Positions 12,987 to 23,425 of a stretch of DNA of 45,832 bases are shown in pieces. Source of the stretch: Lachnospiraceae bacterium (GTDB lineage Bacteria; Bacillota; Clostridia; Lachnospirales; Lachnospiraceae); contig JAFUKJ010000112.1 in assembly GCA_017467805.1 (NCBI GenBank), positions 1 to 45,832 of the forward strand, written 5' to 3'. The notes below the pieces were generated by a model, which was given only the letters and a program-made list of their open reading frames with translations, was not told the origin of the DNA and made no database searches. Position 1 is the first letter of the stretch. Every line of letters starts with the position of its first letter. Made by a program: the position numbers and the translations under genes.

Positions 12987-15974
12987 ATGGCAAAAATTAA
13001 AGTTTATGAACTTGCACAGGAGTTGAATATGCAGAGCAAAGACCTCCTGGCAGTACTGAAAGATAAAGGTATAGAAGTTAAAAATCATATGAGCGTGCTT
13101 GAGGATGAGCAGGTAAGCGTTGCAAGAGCTGCAATGAAGAAGCCTGCAAGTGCAGAAGCACCTGCAAAGGCAGAGGCAAAAAAGGCGGAAGCACCTAAGG
13201 CTGAAGCAGAGCCAGTGAAAAAGAAAAAGAGTATCATCTTTGTAAGTAATCCACAAAATTCAAAGATGCCAGGAGCACAGGTTCCAAAGCAGCCTGCAAA
13301 GCCAGCTCCAAAGCCTGCACCAAAGGCAGCACCTGCGCCAGCACCTAAGGCAGCAGAGCCTGTAAAGCCACAGGTAGAGGTAAAGCCAGTGGAAAAACCA
13401 GTAGTTAAGGTAGAAGAACCAAAGGTAGTAGAAACACCGGTAGTTAAGGTAGAAGAGCCAGTGGAAGCACCTGTTGTTAAGGCAGAGACACCTGTAAAGG
13501 CAGAGGCACCTAAGGCAGCAGAAGTACAGCAGGAGAAGAAGCCACAGACAGATAGCAAGCCTTCTTACGATAGCAATCGAGATAATAATCGTGATAATAA
13601 CCGCGAGCGCAGACCATTTGATGGCAATCGTGACAATAACCGCGGTGATAATCGCGAGCGCAGACCATTTGATGGCAATCGTGATAATAATCGTGGTGAC
13701 AGAAAGCCATTTGATGGCAATCGTGATAATAACCGCGGAGACAGAAAGCCATTTGATGGCAATCGTGATAATAATCGTGGAGATAGAAAGCCATTTGATG
13801 GTAATCGTGATAATAACCGCGGAGATAGAAAGCCATTTGACGGCAATCGCAGAAACGATGGAAGATCATTTGATAACAATAGAAATCAGAATAGCAGACC
13901 TGGTCAGGGCGGATTCCAGAATCGTGGCATGATGAATAAGGATGACATGATGGATAAGGATAGAGACCAGAGAGGCGGCAGAGGCAGCTATGGTAACAAA
14001 GCTGGTGCAAAGGGCGGCAAGTCAGGATTTATTCCAGATGGTCCTATGATGGAGCCAGAGAAGCATAGAGACGAAGAGAAGCGTCGTATCAGCCAGGAGA
14101 AGGATAAGAAGAATAAGAAAGATCTTATCTACGAAGATGATGGCGATATGAAGAATCTTAAGAACAAGCCAGGCAAGTTCATTAAGCCTGAGAAGAAGCC
14201 TGTGGAGCAGGTTGAGGAGCAGATTAAGGTTATTACTCTTCCTGAGAAGCTTACGATTAAGGAGCTTGCTGATAAGATGAAGATGCAGCCTTCTGTTATC
14301 GTTAAGAAGCTTTTCTTACAGGGACAGATTGTAACTGTTAATCAGGAAATTTCCTATGAAGAAGCTGAGAATATCGCAATTGAATATGATATCATCTGCG
14401 AGCAGGAGGTTAAGGTTGACGTAATCGAAGAACTCCTGAAGGAGGATGAAGAGCAGGAAGAGAACTTAGTAAAGAGACCACCTGTTATCTGTGTAATGGG
14501 ACACGTTGACCACGGTAAGACATCTCTTCTTGATGCCATCAGAAAGACAAATGTTACAGATAAAGAGGCTGGTGGTATTACACAGCACATTGGTGCTTAT
14601 ACTGTTAATGTAAACGGAGAGAAGATTACATTCCTTGATACACCTGGACATGAGGCGTTTACAGCTATGCGTATGCGTGGTGCCAATGCTACAGATATTG
14701 CAATTCTTGTAGTTGCAGCAGATGATGGTGTTATGCCACAGACTGTTGAGGCGATTAACCATGCAAAGGCAGCAGGTATCGAGATTATCGTTGCAGTTAA
14801 CAAGATTGATAAGCCAGGCGCTAATATTGACAGAGTTAAGCAGGAGTTAACAGAGTATGAACTCGTAGCAGAGGATTGGGGTGGAAGTACTGTATTTGCA
14901 CCTGTATCTGCTAAGAATGGCGAAGGTATTGAAGAACTTCTGGAAATGATTGTTTTAACAGCTGAAATGCTTGAGTTAAAGGCAAATCCTAACAGACGTG
15001 CAAGGGGGCTTGTAATCGAGGCTGAGCTGGATAAGGGCCGTGGTCCTGTAGCAACTATCCTTGTACAGAAGGGTACTTTGAAGGTTGGAGACTTTATTTC
15101 AGCAGGTGCTGCAAGTGGTAAGGTTCGTGCTATGGTTGATGATAAGGGTAGAAGAATCAAGGAAGCTGATCCGTCTACACCTGTAGAGATTCTTGGATTA
15201 AATGATGTACCAAATGCAGGAGAGATTTTCCTTGCACATGCAAATGATAAGGATGCGAAGTACTACGCAGAAACCTTCGTTGCACAGAATAAGGAGAAGT
15301 TATTAGAGGATACTAAGGCTAAGATGTCTCTTGATGATTTGTTCTCTAAGATTCAGGCTGGTAACCTTAAGGAGCTTAACCTTATTATCAAGGCTGACGT
15401 TCAGGGTAGTGTAGAGGCTGTTAAGCAGAGTCTTATGAAGCTTTCTAATGAGGAAGTAGTTGTTAAGTGTATCCACGGTGGTGTAGGTGCAATTAACGAA
15501 TCAGACGTAATCCTTGCATCTGCATCTAATGCGATTATCATTGGATTTAATGTTCGTCCTGATGCTATGGCTAAGACAACAGCTGAGCGCGAGGGCGTAG
15601 ATGTAAGACTTTATAAGGTTATTTACCAGGCTATTGAGGATATCGAGGCAGCTATGAAGGGGATGCTTGATCCTGTATTTGAAGAGAAGATTATCGGTCA
15701 TGCTGAGGTAAGACAGATTTTCAAGGCATCTGCAATTGGTAATATCGCAGGTTCTTACGTCCTTGACGGTACATTCCAGAGAGGCTGTAAGGTTCGTATC
15801 ACTCGTGAAGGCGAGCAGATTTACGAAGGTGAGCTTGCTTCATTGAAGAGATTTAAGGATGATGTTAAGGAAGTTAAGTCAGGCTTTGAGTGTGGTCTTG
15901 TATTTGACGGATTTGACAGCATGCAGGAATTTGATATTGTAGAAGCGTATATTATGGTAGAGGTTCCACGATGA
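12987..15974 (+). CDS. infB: Translation initiation factor IF-2
   Basis: This GTPase delivers initiator tRNA to the 30S subunit. The 995 residues comprise an IF2N helical module (1-55), a long disordered basic region (about 55-400) with Pro/Ala/Lys-rich and Arg/Asn/Asp-rich repeats, a second IF2N module (about 415-470), and the G domain beginning near 505. The G domain shows [22 protein letters not shown] and NKIDK; domains II-IV follow. Length is at the upper end for the family because of the repeat region. It overlaps rbfA by 4 nt. Confidence 0.97.
13575..13844 (+). repeat. 42-bp tandem repeat in infB encoding an Arg/Asn/Asp-rich disordered region
   Basis: Two 51-nt units are followed by four 42-nt units. 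The 14-residue consensus is [14 protein letters not shown]; the first two units are 17 residues and contain RERRPFDG. The last four units are almost identical in protein and differ mainly at synonymous sites. This resembles RGG-like RNA-binding or condensate-forming tracts and could vary in copy number between strains. Confidence 0.9.
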
Positions 15975-16348
15975 GAAAAAATAGTGTAAAGAATACCCGT
16001 ATTAACGGGGAAGTGCATAGAGTTCTTGCAGAGATTATCCGTGGTGAGATTAAGGACCCGAGAATTAATCCAATGACATCGGTTGTTGCTGTAGAGGTAG
16101 CACCTGATTTGAAGACCTGTAAGGCATGGATTAGTGTTCTTGGTAATGAAGAGTCTCAGCAGGATACTCTTAAGGGACTTAAGAGTGCAGAGGGATATAT
16201 TAAGAATCAACTGGCAAAGAAGATTAATCTTCGTAATACACCAGAGATTCGCTTTGTAATCGACCAGTCTATTGAGTATGGTGTAACCATGTCAAAGATG
16301 ATTGATGATGTAAATCGTGCTGATGATGAGAGGCATGTAGAAGATTAA
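15971..16348 (+). CDS. rbfA: Ribosome-binding factor A
   Basis: RbfA is a 30S maturation factor with a single KH-like domain. The 125-residue chain carries the family features [21 protein letters not shown] near the N-terminus (residues 9-29) and [18 protein letters not shown] (about 85-102). The ATG overlaps the infB stop as ATGA, giving translational coupling. A structured intergenic RNA begins 3 nt after its stop codon. Confidence 0.95.
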
Positions 16349-16351
16349 TTA

Positions 16352-16470
16352 TGTACACGAGTGCATGTGGAAAGTAGTAGCTTCGCTACATGCACTCGGT
16401 ACATGCGAGTAGACGTATGTCTACTCGGATTTGAGTGCCTCTGTGAGTGATTGCTCGCAGGGGCATACAT
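16352..16470 (+). ncRNA. Conserved structured RNA motif, copy A (upstream of nrnA)
   Basis: Stem 1 is TGTAC (16352-16356), bulged A57, CGAGTGCAT (16358-16366) paired with ATGCACTCG (16390-16398) and GTACA (16399-16403). A 10-nt one-sided internal loop GTGGAAAGTA (16367-16376) precedes the hairpin GTAGC-TTC-GCTAC (16377-16389). Hairpin 2 is CGAGTAGAC-GTAT-GTCTACTCG (16406-16427). After GATTT comes hairpin 3 with 12-bp arms (16436-16447 / 16454-16465). A second copy at 21055 shares the fold with compensating substitutions. Known families were not recognised. Confidence 0.8.
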
Positions 16471-16494
16471 TTTGACAATGAAAGGGTGATTTGT

Positions 16495-17442
16495 GTGTTG
16501 CACTTGCGTAAGGAATGCGAAGGGGCAAAAAGTATAGTGATATCGGGTCATATCAGACCTGATGGTGATTGTGTTGGCTCTTGTATGGCTGTGTATCTTT
16601 ATTTGAAGAAGATTATGCCAGAGGCAGATGTCCGTGTGTGCCTTGAACAACCACCAGAGATTTTTTCATGTATAAAGGATTTTGATAAGATTGATACAGA
16701 GTTTCAGATAGATGGCGAACCAGATGTTTTCATAGCATTGGATTGTGAGAAGACAAGACTTGGTGAGGCTGAAGCTGTTTTTGATAGAGCAAAGAAAACA
16801 ATTAATATTGACCATCATATCAGCAATGTAAAAGGCTGTGGTGAGGTGAATTATGTAGTGCCTGAGGCAAGCTCGGCATCGGAGCTGGTTTTTGATGTAT
16901 TAGAAGAGGAAGAAATGGATATGGAGATAGCAAAGGCTATTTACATAGGAATGATTCATGATACAGGAATATTCCAGTATTCTAATACTTCACCTAAGAC
17001 CTTACAGATAGCAGCAAAGCTGATAGGATATGGATTTGATTTTCCTGCACTAATTGATGAGACCTTCTATGAGAAGACCTATGTACAGAATCAAATTTTA
17101 GGCAGGGCGCTGTTAGAGAGCATTGTTTTCATGGATGGTAAGTGTATTGTAAGCTATGTGGATAGAAAGACAATGGATTTTTATCACGCAACCTCTAAGG
17201 ATTTAGATGGCGTGGTAAGCCAGCTTAGACTGACCAAGGGTGTAGAGTGTGCTATTTTTATGTATGAGATTGATACTTTGCAGTACAAGGTTAGTATGCG
17301 TTCCTGCAAATATGTGGATGTGAGCAAGGTGGCATCACAGTTTGGCGGAGGCGGTCACAAGAGGGCGGCAGGCTGTACCATGAACGGAACCTTCCATGAT
17401 GTGATTAACAATCTTTCGAGATATATTGAAGAACAGATGTAG
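16495..17442 (+). CDS. nrnA: Bifunctional oligoribonuclease/pAp phosphatase NrnA (DHH-DHHA1)
   Basis: NrnA degrades 2-5-nt RNA to mononucleotides and dephosphorylates pAp. Motifs in order: GHIRPDGDCVGS (DHH motif I), LDCEKTRLG, IDHHISN (the DHH motif), GMIHDTGIFQYSN, and the DHHA1 glycine motif GGGGHKRAAGC near the C-terminus. I placed the start at the GTG at 16495 because the GGGTGAT site (16483-16489) lies 5 nt upstream. The frame itself continues upstream into the structured RNA, which is unlikely to be coding. The protein is about 315 residues, normal for the family. It is followed closely by truB. Confidence 0.9.
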   Translation: MLHLRKECEGAKSIVISGHIRPDGDCVGSCMAVYLYLKKIMPEADVRVCLEQPPEIFSCIKDFDKIDTEFQIDGEPDVFIALDCEKTRLGEAEAVFDRAKKTINIDHHISNVKGCGEVNYVVPEASSASELVFDVLEEEEMDMEIAKAIYIGMIHDTGIFQYSNTSPKTLQIAAKLIGYGFDFPALIDETFYEKTYVQNQILGRALLESIVFMDGKCIVSYVDRKTMDFYHATSKDLDGVVSQLRLTKGVECAIFMYEIDTLQYKVSMRSCKYVDVSKVASQFGGGGHKRAAGCTMNGTFHDVINNLSRYIEEQM

Positions 17443-17470
17443 CTATATAACAGATAAAGGAAATGAATGC

Positions 17471-18376
17471 GTGATTAACGGAATTATAAATATATATAAG
17501 GAGGCTGGCTTCACATCACATGATGTGGTAGCTAAGCTTCGTGGAATAGTAAAGCAGAAGAAGATAGGGCATACGGGAACTTTGGACCCTGATGCAGTTG
17601 GTGTATTGCCAGTATGTTTTGGTAATGCAACAAAGCTTTGCGATATGCTGACAGATAAGAGCAAGGAATACGAGGCGTGTATGCTGCTTGGTGTTACGAC
17701 GGATACACTGGATATGAGTGGACAGATTTTGTCTGAAAGTAAGGTGGATGTATCGGAGGAGACGGTCAGAGAAGCAATTATGAGCTTTGTAGGTGGTTAT
17801 GACCAGATACCGCCGATGTATTCAGCACTTAAGGTTAATGGTAAGAAGCTTTATGAGCTTGCGAGAGAAGGTAAAGAGATTGAGCGTAAGCCAAGACGTG
17901 TAGAGATTCCAGATATAGAGATAGTAAGTATGCAATTGCCTGAGGTTGTGTTCAGAGTTAGCTGTTCTAAGGGGACTTATATTCGTTCCTTGTGTGCAGA
18001 TATAGGAGACAAGCTAGGCTGTGGTGCGGCAATGAAGAGTTTGAAGAGAACGAGAGTTGGCACCTTTAAGATAGAGGATTCTCTGACATTGGCACAGATT
18101 GAAGAGGTTATGGCAAAGGCATGTATAGAAGACTATGTACTGGCTTCTGATGAGGTATTTATGGAGTATCTTGGTGCAACGGTTAGACCAGAGTTTGACA
18201 AGGTGCTTGCGAATGGCAATAAGCTTATTTTCCCACAGCTTGAACTGGAGGAGAGTCGTCTGGTACAGGATGGGGAAATGATTAGAATATATAATAGTCA
18301 AAAGGTTTTTTCAGGGGTTTATGTGTATGAAAAGGCGGCAGGGTGTCTGAAGCCTTTTAAAATGTTTTTGACGTAG
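17471..18376 (+). CDS. truB: tRNA pseudouridine-55 synthase
   Basis: TruB converts U55 in the T-loop of tRNAs to pseudouridine. The catalytic Asp lies in HTGTLDPDAVGVLP; other family motifs are PPMYSALKVNGKKLYELAR and CSKGTYIRSLCADIG. The GTG at 17471 gives the standard N-terminus INGIINIYKEAGFTSHDVV, with AAAGGAAA about 7 nt upstream. At 301 residues it is full length, with a short C-terminal PUA-like region. It lies 28 nt after nrnA and 12 nt before ribF. Confidence 0.95.
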   Translation: MINGIINIYKEAGFTSHDVVAKLRGIVKQKKIGHTGTLDPDAVGVLPVCFGNATKLCDMLTDKSKEYEACMLLGVTTDTLDMSGQILSESKVDVSEETVREAIMSFVGGYDQIPPMYSALKVNGKKLYELAREGKEIERKPRRVEIPDIEIVSMQLPEVVFRVSCSKGTYIRSLCADIGDKLGCGAAMKSLKRTRVGTFKIEDSLTLAQIEEVMAKACIEDYVLASDEVFMEYLGATVRPEFDKVLANGNKLIFPQLELEESRLVQDGEMIRIYNSQKVFSGVYVYEKAAGCLKPFKMFLT

Positions 18377-18388
18377 AGGATATTGTAA

Positions 18389-19339
18389 ATGAAGATTATT
18401 AACAACACGACAGAATTTTATATAGAGGAAGAAACTGCGGTTGCGATTGGTAAGTTTGATGGATTTCATAGAGGCCATCAGAAGCTTTTGAAGATTATTC
18501 AGGAGCAGAAGGAAAAGGGACTTGCAACAGTGGTATTTACATTTGTACCTTCCCCAACGGCATTTTTTAGTAAGGAAGTGTTGCGAGATTTAACAACAGT
18601 TGAGGAAAAGAGAAGAATCTTTGAAGCAGCGGGTGTTGATTATTTGATAGAGTATCCATTTTATCAGGAGACTGCAGATATGGAGCCTGAGACCTATATT
18701 AAGGAAGTACTGGTGGACAAGCTTCATGCAAGGTGTATTGTGGCTGGAGATGATTTGTCCTATGGCAAGAGAGGGGCAGGAGATGATAAGCTTCTCAAGG
18801 AGAAAGCCTTGGAATATGGCTATGATGTAATTATCATCGAGAAGGTTCTTTATGAGGGACGTGAGGTCAGTTCAACCTATGTAAGAGATGAGGTAAAGCA
18901 GGGCAATATGGAGCTTGTGCATAATTTACTTGGGATGCCTTATCATGTAGGCGGGAAGATTATTCATGGCAGAAAGCTCGGAAGAACAATTGGTATGCCG
19001 ACAGTGAACCTGGAGCCTCCACAGGAGAAGCTTTTACCGCCTAAGGGAGTTTACTATTCCTATGCGGTGTTACAGGGAAAGCGATATTCGGCTATAACGA
19101 ATATTGGAACGAAGCCTACGGTGGATGCTAATAAGGTCATGGGTGTGGAGACATATATCTATGATTTTGATGATAATGTATATGGAGAAGAGCTTGAGGT
19201 TTATTTATTAAGCTATAAGAGAGCAGAAATGCGTTTTGATAGTGTAGAATTACTAAAGGAACAGATGGCAAAAGATATACAGGATGGTAAAAATTACCAT
19301 AGTTATGTTAACAAATGTTGCCAAAATGGGCAGTGTTGA
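18389..19339 (+). CDS. ribF: Bifunctional riboflavin kinase/FMN adenylyltransferase
   Basis: RibF makes FMN and FAD from riboflavin. The N-terminal adenylyltransferase domain (about 1-180) has GKFDGFHRGHQ (HxGH-type nucleotide-binding motif) and SSTYVRDEVKQG. The C-terminal kinase domain (about 185-310) has GRTIGMPTVNL and GVYYSYAVL. The length of 316 is typical. It ends the rimP-ribF gene string; the next gene's -35 box overlaps its stop codon and no terminator separates them. Confidence 0.96.
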   Translation: MKIINNTTEFYIEEETAVAIGKFDGFHRGHQKLLKIIQEQKEKGLATVVFTFVPSPTAFFSKEVLRDLTTVEEKRRIFEAAGVDYLIEYPFYQETADMEPETYIKEVLVDKLHARCIVAGDDLSYGKRGAGDDKLLKEKALEYGYDVIIIEKVLYEGREVSSTYVRDEVKQGNMELVHNLLGMPYHVGGKIIHGRKLGRTIGMPTVNLEPPQEKLLPPKGVYYSYAVLQGKRYSAITNIGTKPTVDANKVMGVETYIYDFDDNVYGEELEVYLLSYKRAEMRFDSVELLKEQMAKDIQDGKNYHSYVNKCCQNGQC

Positions 19340-19385
19340 CATAAAAAGTAAATAATGATATAATTTTTTTGTAACATTTTGTAAT
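19336..19385 (+). promoter_or_regulatory. Consensus sigma-A promoter with a WalR-like repeat
   Basis: TTGACA (19336-19341), a 17-bp spacer and TATAAT (19359-19364), with TGA forming an extended -10. Every consensus base is present. The -35 overlaps the ribF stop codon. TGTAAC (19370-19375) and TGTAAT (19380-19385) follow in direct repeat, 10 bp apart. The WalR consensus in Firmicutes is two TGTWAH hexamers with a 5-nt gap; here the gap is 4, so the operator assignment is tentative. WalR typically controls cell-wall hydrolases such as the gene downstream. Confidence 0.7.
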
Positions 19386-19425
19386 AATGACGTAATGAAA
19401 AAAGTTAATGGGAGTTACAAGGGTA

Positions 19426-20589
19426 ATGAAAAGAAGATCATGCGTGCGAATACTGATGCTTATCAGTATTTCAACTATGCTGTCCTGTAATGTAGCATAT
19501 GCTAATGGGACGACACAGAACGCATCCTCGAAGGAAGTACAGGATACGCAATTACAAAAGACTACAAAGAAAGACACTGAAGAGAATAGATTGTTTGCAG
19601 GAGTTGCCTGGGTGCTTGAGGATGCAGTACATGGAGAGGAGTCCATGACAGTCATAACAGGTGCAACAGAAGCGACAGATGGAGAACAGACTAGATTAGT
19701 AACTGTTGAAGAAACAAAGGTTGAAGGAACGGAACAACAAAAGAAATATTGGGGTTATACGAATTTGGGTATTGCGAATGTGAGCAATAACCTGAATATT
19801 CGTGAAACACCATCCGAGAAGGGCAAGCTGGTAGGTAAGCTGACGAAGGATGCCGCTTGTGAGATTTTATCGGTAGAAGATGGCTGGGCACATATCAAGT
19901 CTGGCAAGGTGGAGGGCTATTGTAGCACAGAATTTCTCTTTATGGGAGAGGACGCGATTGCCAAAGGGCATGAGGTGGCTTCCATGATAGCGATTGTTAA
20001 CACACAGACGCTGAAGGTTAGAGAAGAACCGAATACGGATTGTGCAGTCATTACACTGATTCCAGAGGGCGAGGAGCTTGATGTTGTGGAAGTCATGGAG
20101 AATGGCTGGGTTAAGTTCATGCTCGATGATGAAGAAGCTTATGTCTGCGGAGATTATGTAGATATTGAAGAAAGATTGAAGAAGGCAACATCATTAACTG
20201 AGCTGATGTATGGTCAGGGTGTATCAGATGTGCGTGTAGAGCTGGTACAGTATGCGAAGCAGTTCCTTGGTAATCCGTATGTATGGGGCGGTACAAGCCT
20301 TACGAATGGTGTTGACTGTTCTGGCTTTACGATGCAGGTTTATAAGAAGTTTGGAATTTCCTTACCACATTATTCTGTATCACAGTCTAAGATAGGAACA
20401 AAGATTTCGCTTTCAGAGGCAAAGCCTGGTGACTTGGTCTTCTATGCGAAGAATGGAACGATTAATCATGTTGCTATTTATATAGGAAATGGACAGGTTA
20501 TTCATGCATCGAATCCGAAGTCGGGTATTAAGATTTCGAGTGCAAGCTATCGAACACCTGCGGTTGTTAGAAGATTATTGAATGATTAA
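19426..20589 (+). CDS. Secreted SH3-SH3-NlpC/P60 peptidoglycan hydrolase
   Basis: From the ATG at 19426 the protein has 387 residues and starts with a signal peptide (MKRRSC, then a hydrophobic core, cleavage expected near AYA-NG). An upstream in-frame ATG at 19408 lacks a ribosome binding site. Two bacterial SH3 domains (about 110-170 and 180-240) precede a C-terminal NlpC/P60 domain (about 265-387) with catalytic Cys in DCSGF and His in NHVAIYIG. Such enzymes cleave the D-Glu-diamino acid bond of stem peptides during growth or separation. It has its own strong promoter and no operon partner. Confidence 0.92.
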   Translation: MKRRSCVRILMLISISTMLSCNVAYANGTTQNASSKEVQDTQLQKTTKKDTEENRLFAGVAWVLEDAVHGEESMTVITGATEATDGEQTRLVTVEETKVEGTEQQKKYWGYTNLGIANVSNNLNIRETPSEKGKLVGKLTKDAACEILSVEDGWAHIKSGKVEGYCSTEFLFMGEDAIAKGHEVASMIAIVNTQTLKVREEPNTDCAVITLIPEGEELDVVEVMENGWVKFMLDDEEAYVCGDYVDIEERLKKATSLTELMYGQGVSDVRVELVQYAKQFLGNPYVWGGTSLTNGVDCSGFTMQVYKKFGISLPHYSVSQSKIGTKISLSEAKPGDLVFYAKNGTINHVAIYIGNGQVIHASNPKSGIKISSASYRTPAVVRRLLND

Positions 20590-20612
20590 ACTAATCAAAA
20601 TTAAAATTGTTA

Positions 20613-20641
20613 TTGCATGAACAAGTTTTGTGTGATAAAAT
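20613..20641 (+). promoter_or_regulatory. Promoter of rpsO
   Basis: TTGCAT (20613-20618), a 17-bp spacer and TAAAAT (20636-20641) with TGA just upstream (extended -10). Transcription should start near 20648. Confidence 0.65.
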
Positions 20642-20644
20642 ACA

Positions 20645-20700
20645 TGAGTATGGCATGAAGTATGCCGTAGCCGATACTCAGTGTCGGGACACTCCGACCC
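20645..20700 (+). promoter_or_regulatory. Structured rpsO leader (candidate S15 autoregulatory site)
   Basis: TGAGTAT (20645-20651) pairs with ATACTCA (20674-20680) and encloses GGCAT-GAAGT-ATGCC. A second hairpin GTCGG-GACACT-CCGAC (20683-20698) follows directly. S15 leaders of several bacteria fold into a few adjacent stems that mimic the 16S rRNA site, so autogenous control by S15 is plausible. I cannot match it to a specific published structural class. Part of the left outer arm precedes the predicted start site. Confidence 0.5.
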
Positions 20701-20749
20701 AAGCTTAGTATCTGGCGTTTATAGTTTATTATTTAAGGAGGATATCAAG

Positions 20750-21016
20750 ATGATTTCTAAGGAAAAGAAGCAGGCGATTATCGCTGAGTATGCAAGAACA
20801 CCTGGCGATACAGGTTCACCAGAGGTACAGGTAGCTGTATTAACAGCAAGAATCCAGGAGTTAACTGAGCATTTAAAGAGCAACCAGAAGGATCATCATT
20901 CAAGACGTGGTCTTCTTAAGATGGTAGGTCAGAGACGTGGTTTACTTGATTATTTAAAGAAGACAGATATCGAAAGATATCGTGCTTTGATTGAGAAGCT
21001 TGGAATTAGAAAGTAA
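20750..21016 (+). CDS. rpsO: 30S ribosomal protein S15
   Basis: S15 binds 16S rRNA early in 30S assembly. The 88-residue protein has the universal length and motifs: [38 protein letters not shown]. The ATG follows AAGGAGG by 9 nt. It is followed by a strong terminator and then pnp, the conserved rpsO-pnp order. The frame is open further upstream but no ribosome binding site supports a longer form. Confidence 0.98.
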
Positions 21017-21025
21017 TTCAAAAAC

Positions 21026-21054
21026 AAAGGGCGGAAGTATTTTTCCGCCCTTTA
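21026..21054 (+). terminator. Terminator between rpsO and pnp
   Basis: A perfect 11-bp stem AAAGGGCGGAA / TTCCGCCCTTT (21026-21036 / 21043-21053) has a 6-nt loop and almost no U tract beyond the arm. It could act as a partial terminator or as a 3'-end stabiliser for rpsO mRNA. No promoter is visible between it and pnp, so pnp expression must depend on read-through or an unrecognised promoter. Confidence 0.75.
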
Positions 21055-21180
21055 TGTACACAAATGCCTAAGGAAAATGCAGCTACGCTGCGGCATTTGG
21101 TACAACAAGTAGGCTTAAGTCTACTTGATTTACGAGCACAAACGCATAACGGAGAGACATGTGTAGGAGATTGCTTCGAG
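21055..21180 (+). ncRNA. Conserved structured RNA motif, copy B (pnp leader)
   Basis: Stem 1 is TGTAC (21055-21059), bulged A60, CAAATGCC (21061-21068) paired with GGCATTTG (21092-21099) and GTACA (21100-21104). The one-sided internal loop TAAGGAAAAT (21069-21078) is 10 nt, as in copy A. The inner hairpin is GCAGC-TAC-GCTGC (21079-21091). Hairpin 2 is CAAGTAGGC-TTAA-GTCTACTTG (21106-21127), then ATTT. A third segment holds GATTGCT (21169-21175), which is also in hairpin 3 of copy A. Paired substitutions relative to copy A support the fold. Confidence 0.8.
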
Positions 21181-21258
21181 ACCACTGAAAAGCGTAGGCG
21201 CGCCCTGCATTTTTCAGTAGTTTCGGCTTCTTCTACAAACATCATGAATGCGCATATG
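21177..21258 (+). promoter_or_regulatory. Further stem structures in the pnp leader
   Basis: A long imperfect stem pairs 21177-21191 with 21211-21225 (one G-U, one mismatch), with a loop containing the palindrome GGCGCGCC (21197-21204). A perfect 14-bp palindrome TGCGCATATGCGCA follows near 21245-21258. In enterobacteria PNPase controls its own mRNA through a leader stem cut by RNase III; this leader could serve a similar purpose. That is analogy, not homology. Confidence 0.5.
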
Positions 21259-21298
21259 CGCAATCAACTAGTTTAATAGAAGAAAGGAAGGTTTAAAC

Positions 21299-23425
21299 AT
21301 GTACAACGGAACTTTTAGTGAGAAAAAAGACAAACAGTTTAAGACATTTAGCATGGAGTTAGGCGGACGTACACTTTCAGTAGATATCGGAAGAGTGTCT
21401 GCACAGGCAAATGGTGCTGCATTTATGCATTATGGTGATACAACAGTATTATCTACAGCTACAGCATCTGACAAGCCAAGAGATGGGATTGATTTCTTCC
21501 CATTATCAGTAGAATATGAAGAGAAGTTATACGCAGTAGGTAAGATTCCTGGCGGTTTCAATAAGAGAGAGGGTAAGGCAAGTGAGAATGCAATCCTTAC
21601 AAGCCGTGTTATCGACAGACCAATGCGTCCATTATTCCCTAAGGATTACAGAAACGATGTTACATTGAATAATATGGTAATGTCAGTTGACCCTGAGTGC
21701 CGTCCTGAGTTAGTAGCTATGCTTGGTTCAGCTATCGCAACAAGTATTTCAGACATCCCATTTAATGGTCCATGTGCTACTACACAGTTAGGTATGGTGA
21801 ACGGTGAGTTCATCGTTAACCCTAATCAGGAGCAGTGGAAGAACGGTGACTTACAGTTAACAGTTGCTTCTACAAGCACAAAGGTTATCATGATTGAGGC
21901 TGGTGCAAACGAGATTCCTGAGGATAAGATGATTGAGGCTATTTACAAGTGCCATGAGATTAACCAGACTATTATCGAGTTTATTAATAAGATGGTAGCA
22001 GAGGTTGGTAAGGCTAAGCATGAGTATACAAGCTGTGCTATTCCAGAGGAAATGTTTGCTAAGATGAAGGAAATTGTAACTCCTGCTGAGATGGAAGTTG
22101 CAGTATTCACAGATGAGAAGCAGGTTCGTGAAGAGAACATGAAGAAGGTTACAGAGAAGCTTGAAGAGGCTTTTGCTGATAACGAGGAGTGGATGGCAGT
22201 TCTTGGAGAGGCTATCTACCAGTATGAGAAGAAGACAGTTCGTAAGATGATTTTGAAGGACCAGAAGCGTCCAGATGGTCGTCAGATGACACAGATTAGA
22301 CCTTTATTTGCTGAGGTTGATGTTGTTCCTAGAGTTCATGGTTCGGCTATGTTCACAAGAGGACAGACACAGATTTGTAACGTAGTTACATTAGCTCCTC
22401 TTTCAGAGGCTCAGAAGGTTGATGGTCTTGATGAGAACGAGACAACTAAGAGATATATGCACCACTATAACTTCACTTCATACTCTGTAGGTGAGACAAA
22501 GCCTTCAAGAGGACCAGGACGTAGAGAGATTGGACATGGTGCATTAGCTGAGAAGGCATTGGTAGCAGTATTACCTTCAGAGGCTGATTTCCCATATGCT
22601 ATCAGAAGCGTATCTGAGACATTTGAGTCTAACGGTTCAACATCTATGGCTTCTACATGTTCATCTTGTATGGCATTGATGGCTGCAGGTGTTCCTATTA
22701 AGAGAATGGTAGCAGGTATTTCATGTGGTCTTGTTACAGGCGAGGCTGATGAGGATTTCGTATTATTAACAGATATTCAGGGACTTGAGGACTTCTTCGG
22801 AGATATGGACTTCAAGGTAACTGGTACAACAGAGGGTATCACAGCTATTCAGATGGATATCAAGATTAACGGTTTAACAAGAGAAATCGTTGAGGGTGCT
22901 ATTAGAAGATGTCGTGATGCAAGATTATATATTATGGATAACTGCATGAAGCCAGCTATCGCTGAGCCAAGAGCAGAGGTTGGAGAGTATGCTCCTAAGA
23001 TTATCCAGATTCAGATTGACCCTGAGAAGATTGGTGATGTTGTTGGTCAGAGAGGTAAGACTATCAACGCTATCATCGACCAGACAGGCGTTAAGATTGA
23101 TATCACAGATGATGGTGCTGTAAGCGTATGCGGTACAGACCAGAAGATGATGGATAAGGCTGTTGAGATGATTAAGATTATCACAACAGAGTTTGAAGAG
23201 GGACAGGTATTCAAGGGTAAGGTTATCAGCATCAAAGAGTTCGGTGCATTCCTTGAGTTTGCTCCTGGTAAGGAAGGTATGGTTCATATTTCTAAGATTT
23301 CTAAGGAAAGAATCAACCATGTAGAGGATGTTCTTACATTAGGCGACGTTGTTACAGTTGTTTGCTTAGGTAAGGATAAGATGGGACGTATCAGCTTCTC
23401 TATGAAGGATGTAGCTGAGGCGTAA
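21299..23425 (+). CDS. pnp: Polyribonucleotide nucleotidyltransferase (PNPase)
   Basis: PNPase is the phosphorolytic 3'-5' exoribonuclease of mRNA decay. The 708-residue chain has the full domain set: RNase PH domain 1 (about 10-215), the helical linker, RNase PH domain 2 (about 315-545, with KRPDGRQ, RGQTQ and GPGRREIGHGALAEKAL), KH (IGDVVGQRGKTINAII, about 575-635) and S1 (about 640-705). A GAAAGGAAGG site precedes the ATG. It is preceded by an unusual leader of about 240 nt and followed by two terminators. Confidence 0.98.
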   Translation: MYNGTFSEKKDKQFKTFSMELGGRTLSVDIGRVSAQANGAAFMHYGDTTVLSTATASDKPRDGIDFFPLSVEYEEKLYAVGKIPGGFNKREGKASENAILTSRVIDRPMRPLFPKDYRNDVTLNNMVMSVDPECRPELVAMLGSAIATSISDIPFNGPCATTQLGMVNGEFIVNPNQEQWKNGDLQLTVASTSTKVIMIEAGANEIPEDKMIEAIYKCHEINQTIIEFINKMVAEVGKAKHEYTSCAIPEEMFAKMKEIVTPAEMEVAVFTDEKQVREENMKKVTEKLEEAFADNEEWMAVLGEAIYQYEKKTVRKMILKDQKRPDGRQMTQIRPLFAEVDVVPRVHGSAMFTRGQTQICNVVTLAPLSEAQKVDGLDENETTKRYMHHYNFTSYSVGETKPSRGPGRREIGHGALAEKALVAVLPSEADFPYAIRSVSETFESNGSTSMASTCSSCMALMAAGVPIKRMVAGISCGLVTGEADEDFVLLTDIQGLEDFFGDMDFKVTGTTEGITAIQMDIKINGLTREIVEGAIRRCRDARLYIMDNCMKPAIAEPRAEVGEYAPKIIQIQIDPEKIGDVVGQRGKTINAIIDQTGVKIDITDDGAVSVCGTDQKMMDKAVEMIKIITTEFEEGQVFKGKVISIKEFGAFLEFAPGKEGMVHISKISKERINHVEDVLTLGDVVTVVCLGKDKMGRISFSMKDVAEA

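Follow-up and report, generated by a model that had tools for sequence, protein, structure and literature searches.

PATEs and REP elements, which derive from IS200/IS605, fold into hairpins that carry an extrahelical base, and they lack a target duplication. In the Bacillus cereus group, bcr1-bcr3 are described as short, non-coding, MITE-like intergenic repeats that often lie within UTRs (PMC3446304), and the mobility of bcr repeats is reported to be tied to a TTTAT motif (PMC6542083). Group IIC introns are described as inserting at intrinsic terminators (PMC4424553).

The repeat reported here occurs twice in the window, that is the whole stretch of DNA analysed (45,832 nucleotides from a Lachnospiraceae bacterium). 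It forms a dispersed family with a conserved fold and a preference for terminators, and its copies are present or absent at orthologous sites. Like bcr1-bcr3 it is short, non-coding and intergenic, and 39 of 72 copies have TTTAT at their left junction; compared by description only, it differs from them in its host family, in having a hairpin plus T-tract as its target, and in that TTTAT does not flank both sides (4/72 at the right junction). It resembles group IIC introns in lying behind terminators in sense orientation (71/85, see below) but, at about 80–170 nt, is too short for a ribozyme core with domain V, gives no group II match in Rfam, and is carried by several genomes without a reverse transcriptase match. 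Like PATEs and REP elements it folds into hairpins in which one base is extrahelical, and at the one site resolved a duplication was not evident. In contrast to these, its target is the terminator, and 9 of the 14 genomes searched, mostly carriers, gave no match to a Y1 transposase, with a match in the other 5. Terminal inverted repeats with a fixed duplication, a feature of MITEs, were not seen when the ends of window-type copies were read, which is not a formal test, and some subtypes are alike at both ends. The repeat is probably a miniature mobile element of Lachnospiraceae, non-autonomous and aimed at intrinsic terminators.

Two copies in the window and their common fold

Copy 1 (16350..16431; all features given here are on the forward strand) lies between rbfA (15971..16348; NCBIfam rbfA, 105 bits, above cut-off) and an NrnA-like coding region whose start is not settled (16501..17442; NCBIfam NrnA, 111 bits, below the cut-off of 350). 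It starts 1 nt past the rbfA stop and is followed by a hairpin on its 3' side. Copy 2 (21053..21131) lies between the terminator of rpsO (coding region 20750..21016; NCBIfam S15, 135 bits, above cut-off) and pnp (21299..23425; NCBIfam polyribonucleotide nucleotidyltransferase, 928 bits, above cut-off). This terminator-like hairpin with T-tract, read directly at 21026..21053 (-17.8 kcal/mol), has counterparts behind rpsO in relatives both with and without the repeat, as seen by direct reading of the loci. Both copies were also read directly; they match covariance model R1 with 93 and 87.8 bits, respectively, scores of training members, as R1 was built from five copies including these two.

Copy 1 comprises P1 (16352-16356/16399-16403), a bulged A (16357), P2 (16358-16366/16390-16398), a one-sided loop (16367-16376), an inner hairpin (16377-16381/16385-16389) and hairpin 2 (16406-16414/16419-16427). 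The corresponding parts of copy 2 are P1 (21055-21059/21100-21104), bulged A (21060), P2 (21061-21068/21092-21099), loop (21069-21078), inner hairpin (21079-21083/21087-21091) and hairpin 2 (21106-21114/21119-21127). The layout that an earlier note on this DNA had proposed for both copies (order of parts, bulged A, 10-nt one-sided loop with GGAAA, triloop hairpin, GTACA arm, 9-bp hairpin 2) was confirmed, and the double-sided base changes that it listed between them are present in the sequence. Its common third segment with ATTGCT, however, is unshared and consists of two different structures. Behind copy 1 it is a strongly folding native hairpin 3' of rbfA (16433..16468), outside the repeat, with a counterpart in the relative G011, which has no copy at this site. 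Behind copy 2 the segment belongs to a separate RNA (21158-21242), whose 5' arm it forms and which contains the ATTGCT.

The 81-nt stretches of copies 1 and 2 fold far more stably than shuffled sequences (z -8.15 and -6.12). In the minimum-energy fold of copy 1 the inner pairs differ from the described triloop hairpin, the latter being the version favoured by the family alignments. Across 72 related sequences, 94.4% of the cells are paired, 26 of 28 pairs show changes on both sides, and the covariation score is 0.604 (0.216 shuffled, at most 0.113 slid); for 83 matches from loci chosen by a pattern, 25/28 pairs changed on both sides and the score was 0.505 against 0.162. Both sets, like the copies used for the terminator and orientation counts below, are biased to one type, as the locus-selection pattern fixes some of the sequence, and alignments A4, A5 and A7 were fitted to models. 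The bulged A is kept in 72/72 aligned copies. G-U cells outnumber A-C cells by 45 to 23 in the 72 rows when two pairs are left out, one being U-G in 42/72 rows and the other A-C in 33/72. We did not accept this excess as proof that the element acts as RNA and not as DNA, given its weakness and the two excluded pairs.

No Rfam 15 family matched in the window at gathering score, in line with the earlier note, which recognised no published family, and nothing in the literature consulted (mostly without subscription papers) was recognised as this repeat. At relaxed thresholds the copies were touched only by matches far under the gathering scores, such as an L20 leader match over copy 2 on the opposite strand (19.3 of the 58.7 bits for gathering) and sub-threshold matches to miRNA and sRNA families for copies in L022, L075 and L078.

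Spread and placement behind terminators

The window's genome contains 12 strong copies (R1 search). Further homologues, sought with the covariance model in Lachnospiraceae genomes as the earlier note had proposed, were found in 29 of the 299 that were sampled (E 0.001). At E 0.1 the repeat occurs in 30 of 36 genomes of the same genus and in 1/24 from other families of the order. Among viral contigs, considered as a carrier, just one stretch gave a match. With many dispersed copies, the view that the motif is unlike a recently moved repeat finds no support. The outcome that the earlier note had named as contrary to its reading, a dispersed repeat with random placement, largely applies as regards dispersal, but the placement is behind terminators and not random.

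The earlier note had taken the motif for a cis-acting RNA specific to genes of RNA-degrading enzymes, as the window's two copies precede nrnA and pnp. We regard this as extremely unlikely, and a regulator at nrnA and pnp was rejected because of the distribution: the 10 other strong copies of the same genome sit elsewhere, following rarA-like, purF-like, efp and further genes that look unrelated, while copies at nrnA and pnp are rare within the genus. The nrnA-site copy occurs in 1/30 genus loci, in the window's genome only; at the pnp site R1 finds copies in 2/30, with two more recognised by eye; and outside the genus all 29 rpsO-pnp loci searched lack the repeat at E 0.1. A covarying fold seen twice is thus not necessarily a riboregulator.

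By an RNA-fold test, a terminator-like hairpin with T-tract lies upstream of 71 of the 85 copies without a 5' module of their own, compared with 101/1700 random places and 104/379 places after TTTT|AT, the latter control being conservative as it contains real terminators. The other 14 of the 85 failed the test, and the grouping by 5' module (30 copies have one of their own, 85 do not) is heuristic, made after failures of a simple stem finder had been seen. That earlier scan (64/115 copies; controls 30/2300 and 49/470; downstream side 1/112) was replaced, since it overlooked long-looped terminators. In genome G296, 16/18 copies lie behind a terminator; in the window's genome only 7/12 pass the strict test, with copy 1 among the failures.

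The nearest called upstream gene is on the strand of the repeat for 53/59 copies, against an all-ORF background of 498 to 238. Orientation is less clear for copies with their own 5' module (20 on the same strand, 9 on the opposite). A first, cruder count of 70 matches had given 46 on the same strand, 12 on the opposite strand, 11 inside ORF calls and one without a call.

Sense orientation behind genes, adjacency to terminators and a strong fold would also suit an RNA that serves the host in 3' regions, catching read-through past the terminator or shaping the 3' ends, stability or termination of upstream transcripts, and kept where it is useful; the excess of G-U over A-C cells weakly favours such a function of the sense strand. 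We nevertheless consider this unlikely, as the copy number within one genus ranges from 0 to 29 (among genomes that differ in completeness), the neighbouring genes appear unrelated, and orthologous sites of conserved genes lack copies, some of them with remnant-like traces.

Filled and empty sites, and how the repeat may move

The nrnA-site copy is absent from the closest relative. At the pnp site, genomes of the genus carry one copy, two copies or none, with apparent remnants at some orthologous sites: G011 has a tandem pair of copies behind the rpsO terminator, and the sites of G012, G010 and G036 are empty. When these three were compared with the filled pnp sites of G028 and G004 (recognised by eye, R1 giving no match there even at E 10), a target duplication was not evident, a T-run leaving 1–2 nt ambiguous. 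An empty-site search with the joined flanks of the 72 matches, and of the 44 of 83 further matches with long enough flanks, against the collected loci gave only the nrnA site, the pnp site, a tandem locus and one match that was weak and short.

Such a junction, together with the sense orientation, would fit a SINE-like element that parasitises group IIC introns, its RNA being inserted at terminators in trans by a reverse transcriptase that the intron encodes, as these introns are described as targeting intrinsic terminators (PMC4424553). RVT_1 matches were found in 8/16 genomes searched, among them the window's own (one reverse transcriptase match, no Y1 match). We think this origin rather improbable, since at the element the Rfam scans matched no group II intron and the carriers G296, G033, G014, G021 and G202 have no RVT_1 match, although loss is possible.

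The terminal hairpins, the invariant bulged base and the lack of a clear target duplication recall instead a PATE- or REP-like descendant of IS200/IS605-type elements, whose mover would be a Y1 transposase recognising hairpins in which one base is extrahelical. Y1 matches do occur in the carriers G033, G018 and G331, but not in the carriers G000 (the window's genome), G296, G175, G324, G014, G021 and G202, where loss is again possible; conversely, G017 and G029 have Y1 matches, the one in G029 being fragmentary, yet no R1 match, and a limited search gave no full-length parent, so that the chance of such a derivation seems small. The search for a mover covered Y1 transposases and reverse transcriptases, and no mover was found; G296, rich in similar copies, has a match to neither.

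In the explanation that we favour, a mobile element aimed at terminators, a unit that measures about 80 nt in the form seen in the window and has no gene of its own would carry its information in a folded single strand (P1 with the bulged A, P2, the one-sided GGAAA loop, the inner hairpin and, at the end, a hairpin closing with ATT). The unit lies in sense orientation directly past the T-tract of intrinsic terminators, and its distribution and presence or absence suggest that it moves. An enzyme supplied in trans may read both the folded strand and the terminator hairpin, with the invariant bulged A as a likely contact, and entry would occur without a target duplication of at least 3 nt, judging from the one site resolved. 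The fold would persist since only folding copies spread, and not through service of single copies to the host.

More tentatively, protein-less elements of this kind could use the folded single strand as mobility signal and host terminators as attachment site, with newcomers inserting beside the terminator and displacing older copies, and an unrecognised hairpin-reading enzyme as the mover; we hold this wider picture to be possible, though doubtful. In G296 the inner arm of the element mirrors the T-tract of the host, hinting at fold-back copying at insertion. Group IIC introns being known to target intrinsic terminators, a gene-less element of less than 100 nt that does likewise would point to a further mobility system that reads terminators, and the repeat illustrates the remodelling of gene 3' regions in a major gut family.

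The separate leader RNA of pnp

In E. coli, RNase III is described as cleaving the rpsO-pnp mRNA, which destabilises the pnp mRNA (PMC8708148). The RNA at 21158..21242 resembles that system by its position between rpsO and pnp; the core CGAGAC/GUUUCG is a feature of the Lachnospiraceae leader. This leader probably controls pnp and is a candidate cis-acting RNA unrelated to the repeat. The earlier note's proposal of a new cis-acting RNA survives in part, in a conserved covarying fold; that a candidate cis-acting RNA also lies before pnp is a coincidence, as this leader is not the motif that was seen twice. Nothing in the literature consulted (again mostly without subscription papers) was recognised as this leader. 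Across the family it is a candidate for regulating, as an RNA, an enzyme central to RNA decay.

With model R2 the leader is found in 191 of the 299 family genomes sampled (E 0.01), and a pnp motif lies downstream in 29 of the best 30 loci. Its alignment shows covariation (one leader analysis took 16 of the 19 leaders detected in the genus), and the core of the Lachnospiraceae RNA is invariant.

A family of folded repeats

The two structured motifs of the window are members of a repeat family. Copy 1 (16350-16431) lies between rbfA and an NrnA-like gene; copy 2 (21053-21131) follows the rpsO terminator and precedes pnp. Of the gene names, rbfA, S15 and PNPase score above their NCBIfam cut-offs, and the NrnA identification, at 111 bits, stays below the cut-off of 350. 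The core anatomy set out in an earlier note is common to both copies when the sequence is read directly, the inner triloop hairpin included, although the minimum-energy fold of copy 1 has other inner pairs. Compared with shuffled sequence, the folds of both copies are far more stable (z -8.15 and -6.12). A search of the whole window against Rfam 15 returned no family that attains its gathering score. With E values of up to 10 allowed, nine matches lie in 15900-21700, some of them over copy 2, all far below gathering scores. A different kind of repetition, seen in translation, occurs at about 13560-13880, where 14-letter protein units recur in the N-terminal part of a long ORF (12987-15974), presumably an infB-like gene.

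With copy 1 as BLAST query, more copies were found in the same genome on contigs C42, C5 and C62. These copies follow a RarA-like gene and efp or lie between a PurF-like gene and purA (purA and efp above NCBIfam cut-offs, the other two below). A covariance model built from five copies (R1) detects 12 strong copies in this genome, which score between 39.5 and 97.6 bits with E values of 2.2e-4 or lower, followed by two weak matches with E 6 and 8. At E 0.1, R1 matched 32 of 61 relatives' genomes, this one included: 30 of 36 congeneric genomes, each bearing between 1 and 29 matches, and 1 of 24 in other families of the order; the match in genome G025 is no better than E 0.017. Of 299 genomes sampled across the family, R1 matched 29 at E 0.001, a lower bound, as G036 has 3 matches in the relatives' search and none under the stricter family-wide filters. 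Scanning public genomes with a DNA pattern gave at least 117 stretches, the 80 titles listed being Lachnospiraceae, Clostridiaceae, Eubacterium, Dorea, Acetatifactor, Mobilitalea or a bacterium without taxon, and a similar core pattern matched one stretch among viral contigs (L329, IMG/VR). In G296, a genome of another genus, BLAST with one copy yielded 19 matches of at least 147 nt and 90-100% identity, with differing flanks.

The fold is under strong constraint. An alignment of 72 hits from 69 loci has 94.4% paired cells, and 26 of 28 pairs show double-sided changes, the covariation score being 0.604 vs 0.216 for shuffled and at most 0.113 for slid controls; for 83 hits that come from 80 of the 117 pattern loci the values are 95.3% and 25 of 28, with a score of 0.505 vs 0.162 and at most 0.078. 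Both alignments were fitted to the model and so lean towards structure, the margins being large nonetheless. The bulged A is present in all 72 hits of the first set, loop positions G24 and A26 each in 71, and one pair of outer stem P1 is frequently A-C (33/72).

Placement behind terminators and at orthologous sites

The best reading of the repeat, in our view, is a non-autonomous miniature mobile element whose folded strand is recognised and which inserts at terminators. We examined 115 pattern copies, set aside 30 with an apparent 5' hairpin module of their own, and scored the remaining 85 for a stable hairpin ending at most 12 nt before the copy together with 4 or more T among the final 9 nt. 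This test was passed by 71 of the 85, by 101 of 1700 random places in the same loci and by 104 of 379 places after TTTT|AT. Judged by crude ORF calls, 59 copies have a nearest upstream gene, and in 53 of them it shares the strand of the copy (19 inside ORF calls and 7 without an upstream call being outside this count), against a background of 498 to 238 for all ORFs of these loci; the 30 copies with a 5' module split 20 to 9, with 1 uncalled. In the genome of the window, 7 of the 12 copies pass the strict test. Copy 1 fails it, standing behind the rbfA stop, and copy 2 fails by one T, with a clear hairpin preceding it. In G296, the 5' hairpin is complete in 18 of the 19 BLAST matches, and the test is passed by 16 of these 18.

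The earlier note, largely right in its observation, had tied the motif to RNA turnover, and for the repeat this is wrong: with R1 at E up to 1, the nrnA copy occurs in 1 of 30 loci of the genus (that of the window's own genome) and the pnp copy in 2 of 30 (own genome and G011), while other copies stand beside genes that look unrelated. G011 is the closest relative by its NrnA-like and pnp proteins. It lacks the nrnA copy, a native hairpin starting a few bases past the rbfA stop, and at pnp it carries two tandem copies, the second like the window's; the other lies between that copy and the terminator and is therefore probably the younger. By eye, G028 and G004 have a divergent copy at the same pnp place, where R1 finds nothing at E 10. 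The junction of these by-eye copies, CTTTT/element/TAACC vs CTTTTTAACC in the empty sites of G012, G010 and G036, shows no target duplication of 3 nt or more. Remnant-like sequence was seen by eye behind the same rpsO terminator in some other genomes, none of it confirmed by R1, and the repeat is found in 0 of 29 rpsO-pnp loci of other genera.

Head-to-tail tandem copies stand at L270 (G011), L071/L097 (G324), G031:C66, G033:C70 and G011:C150; in G011 the additional copy is the one beside the rpsO terminator. At the rpsO-pnp site of G025 (L283), all that is left behind the terminator is ATGCAT, perhaps the footprint of an excision or deletion.

Flank pairing and candidate movers

The G296 copies (L082-L091, L112-L135) are longer relatives whose 5' hairpin has an inner arm that tends to mirror the T-tract of the host. 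Among 22 distinct 5' hairpins, all 6 with a variant arm show full pairing to their own flank across the 6-7 nt compared; of the 16 with the common arm, 12 pair along 5 nt or more and the other 4 do not. Fold-back copying at insertion and later correction of an imperfect palindrome would both explain this mirroring.

In one G296 copy, L125, the flanks on either side (CAGGAACAGTG / CACTGTTCCTG) complement each other, as though this copy had gone into a hairpin loop. Further subtypes (L166, L177, L033, L035 and others; L092-L096 of G175) have a 5' hairpin of their own (e.g. TATACTGGCGG...CAGTATA) similar to the 3' hairpin, so that the two ends look related; by eye, some are not behind terminators.

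If the repeat is such a mobile element, a putative mover would recognise its folded strand, and insertion would take place at terminators. A Y1 transposase match was absent from 9 of 14 genomes searched, including G296 and the window's own, and a reverse transcriptase match from 8 of 16, including G296; the window's genome has one reverse transcriptase match (85 bits). The mover could have been lost from G296, because the copies there differ by several percent.

A separate RNA before pnp

A third segment, counted as shared in the earlier note, does not belong to the repeat: next to copy 1 it corresponds to the hairpin that follows rbfA, and next to copy 2 it is part of a separate RNA on the forward strand (21158-21242), identified by matches to its own covariance model (R2) and by covariation. 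What the analysis gained in passing is a real and distinct RNA ahead of pnp, spread across the family. A pattern search located its core in 19 of the 30 pnp loci from the genus; among the 16 of these leaders that were compared, the core is invariant and double-sided changes occur only in 5 basal-stem pairs, a covariation equalled by 39 of 500 shuffles and therefore modest for the genus alone. Across the leaders of the 30 best-scoring R2 loci, 12 of 21 pairs show double-sided changes (covariation score 0.353 vs 0.143 shuffled), nine core pairs never varying and the basal stem covarying. Rfam returned no family at its gathering score at the leader in eight loci.

The 30 best-scoring R2 loci all have an rpsO motif upstream (within about 500 nt in 29, at 1.4 kb in L355), and a pnp motif was found downstream in 29, L349 being the exception. 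The RNA is most likely a regulatory pnp leader, perhaps acting via RNase III or PNPase, and is possibly more useful for RNA turnover than the repeat. Cleavage of the rpsO-pnp mRNA by RNase III in E. coli is described in PMC8708148. At E 0.01, R2 matched 191 of 299 family genomes; of those listed, most have one match and some two, the second falling in at least three cases on the other strand of one and the same place, and four weak matches occur in G202.
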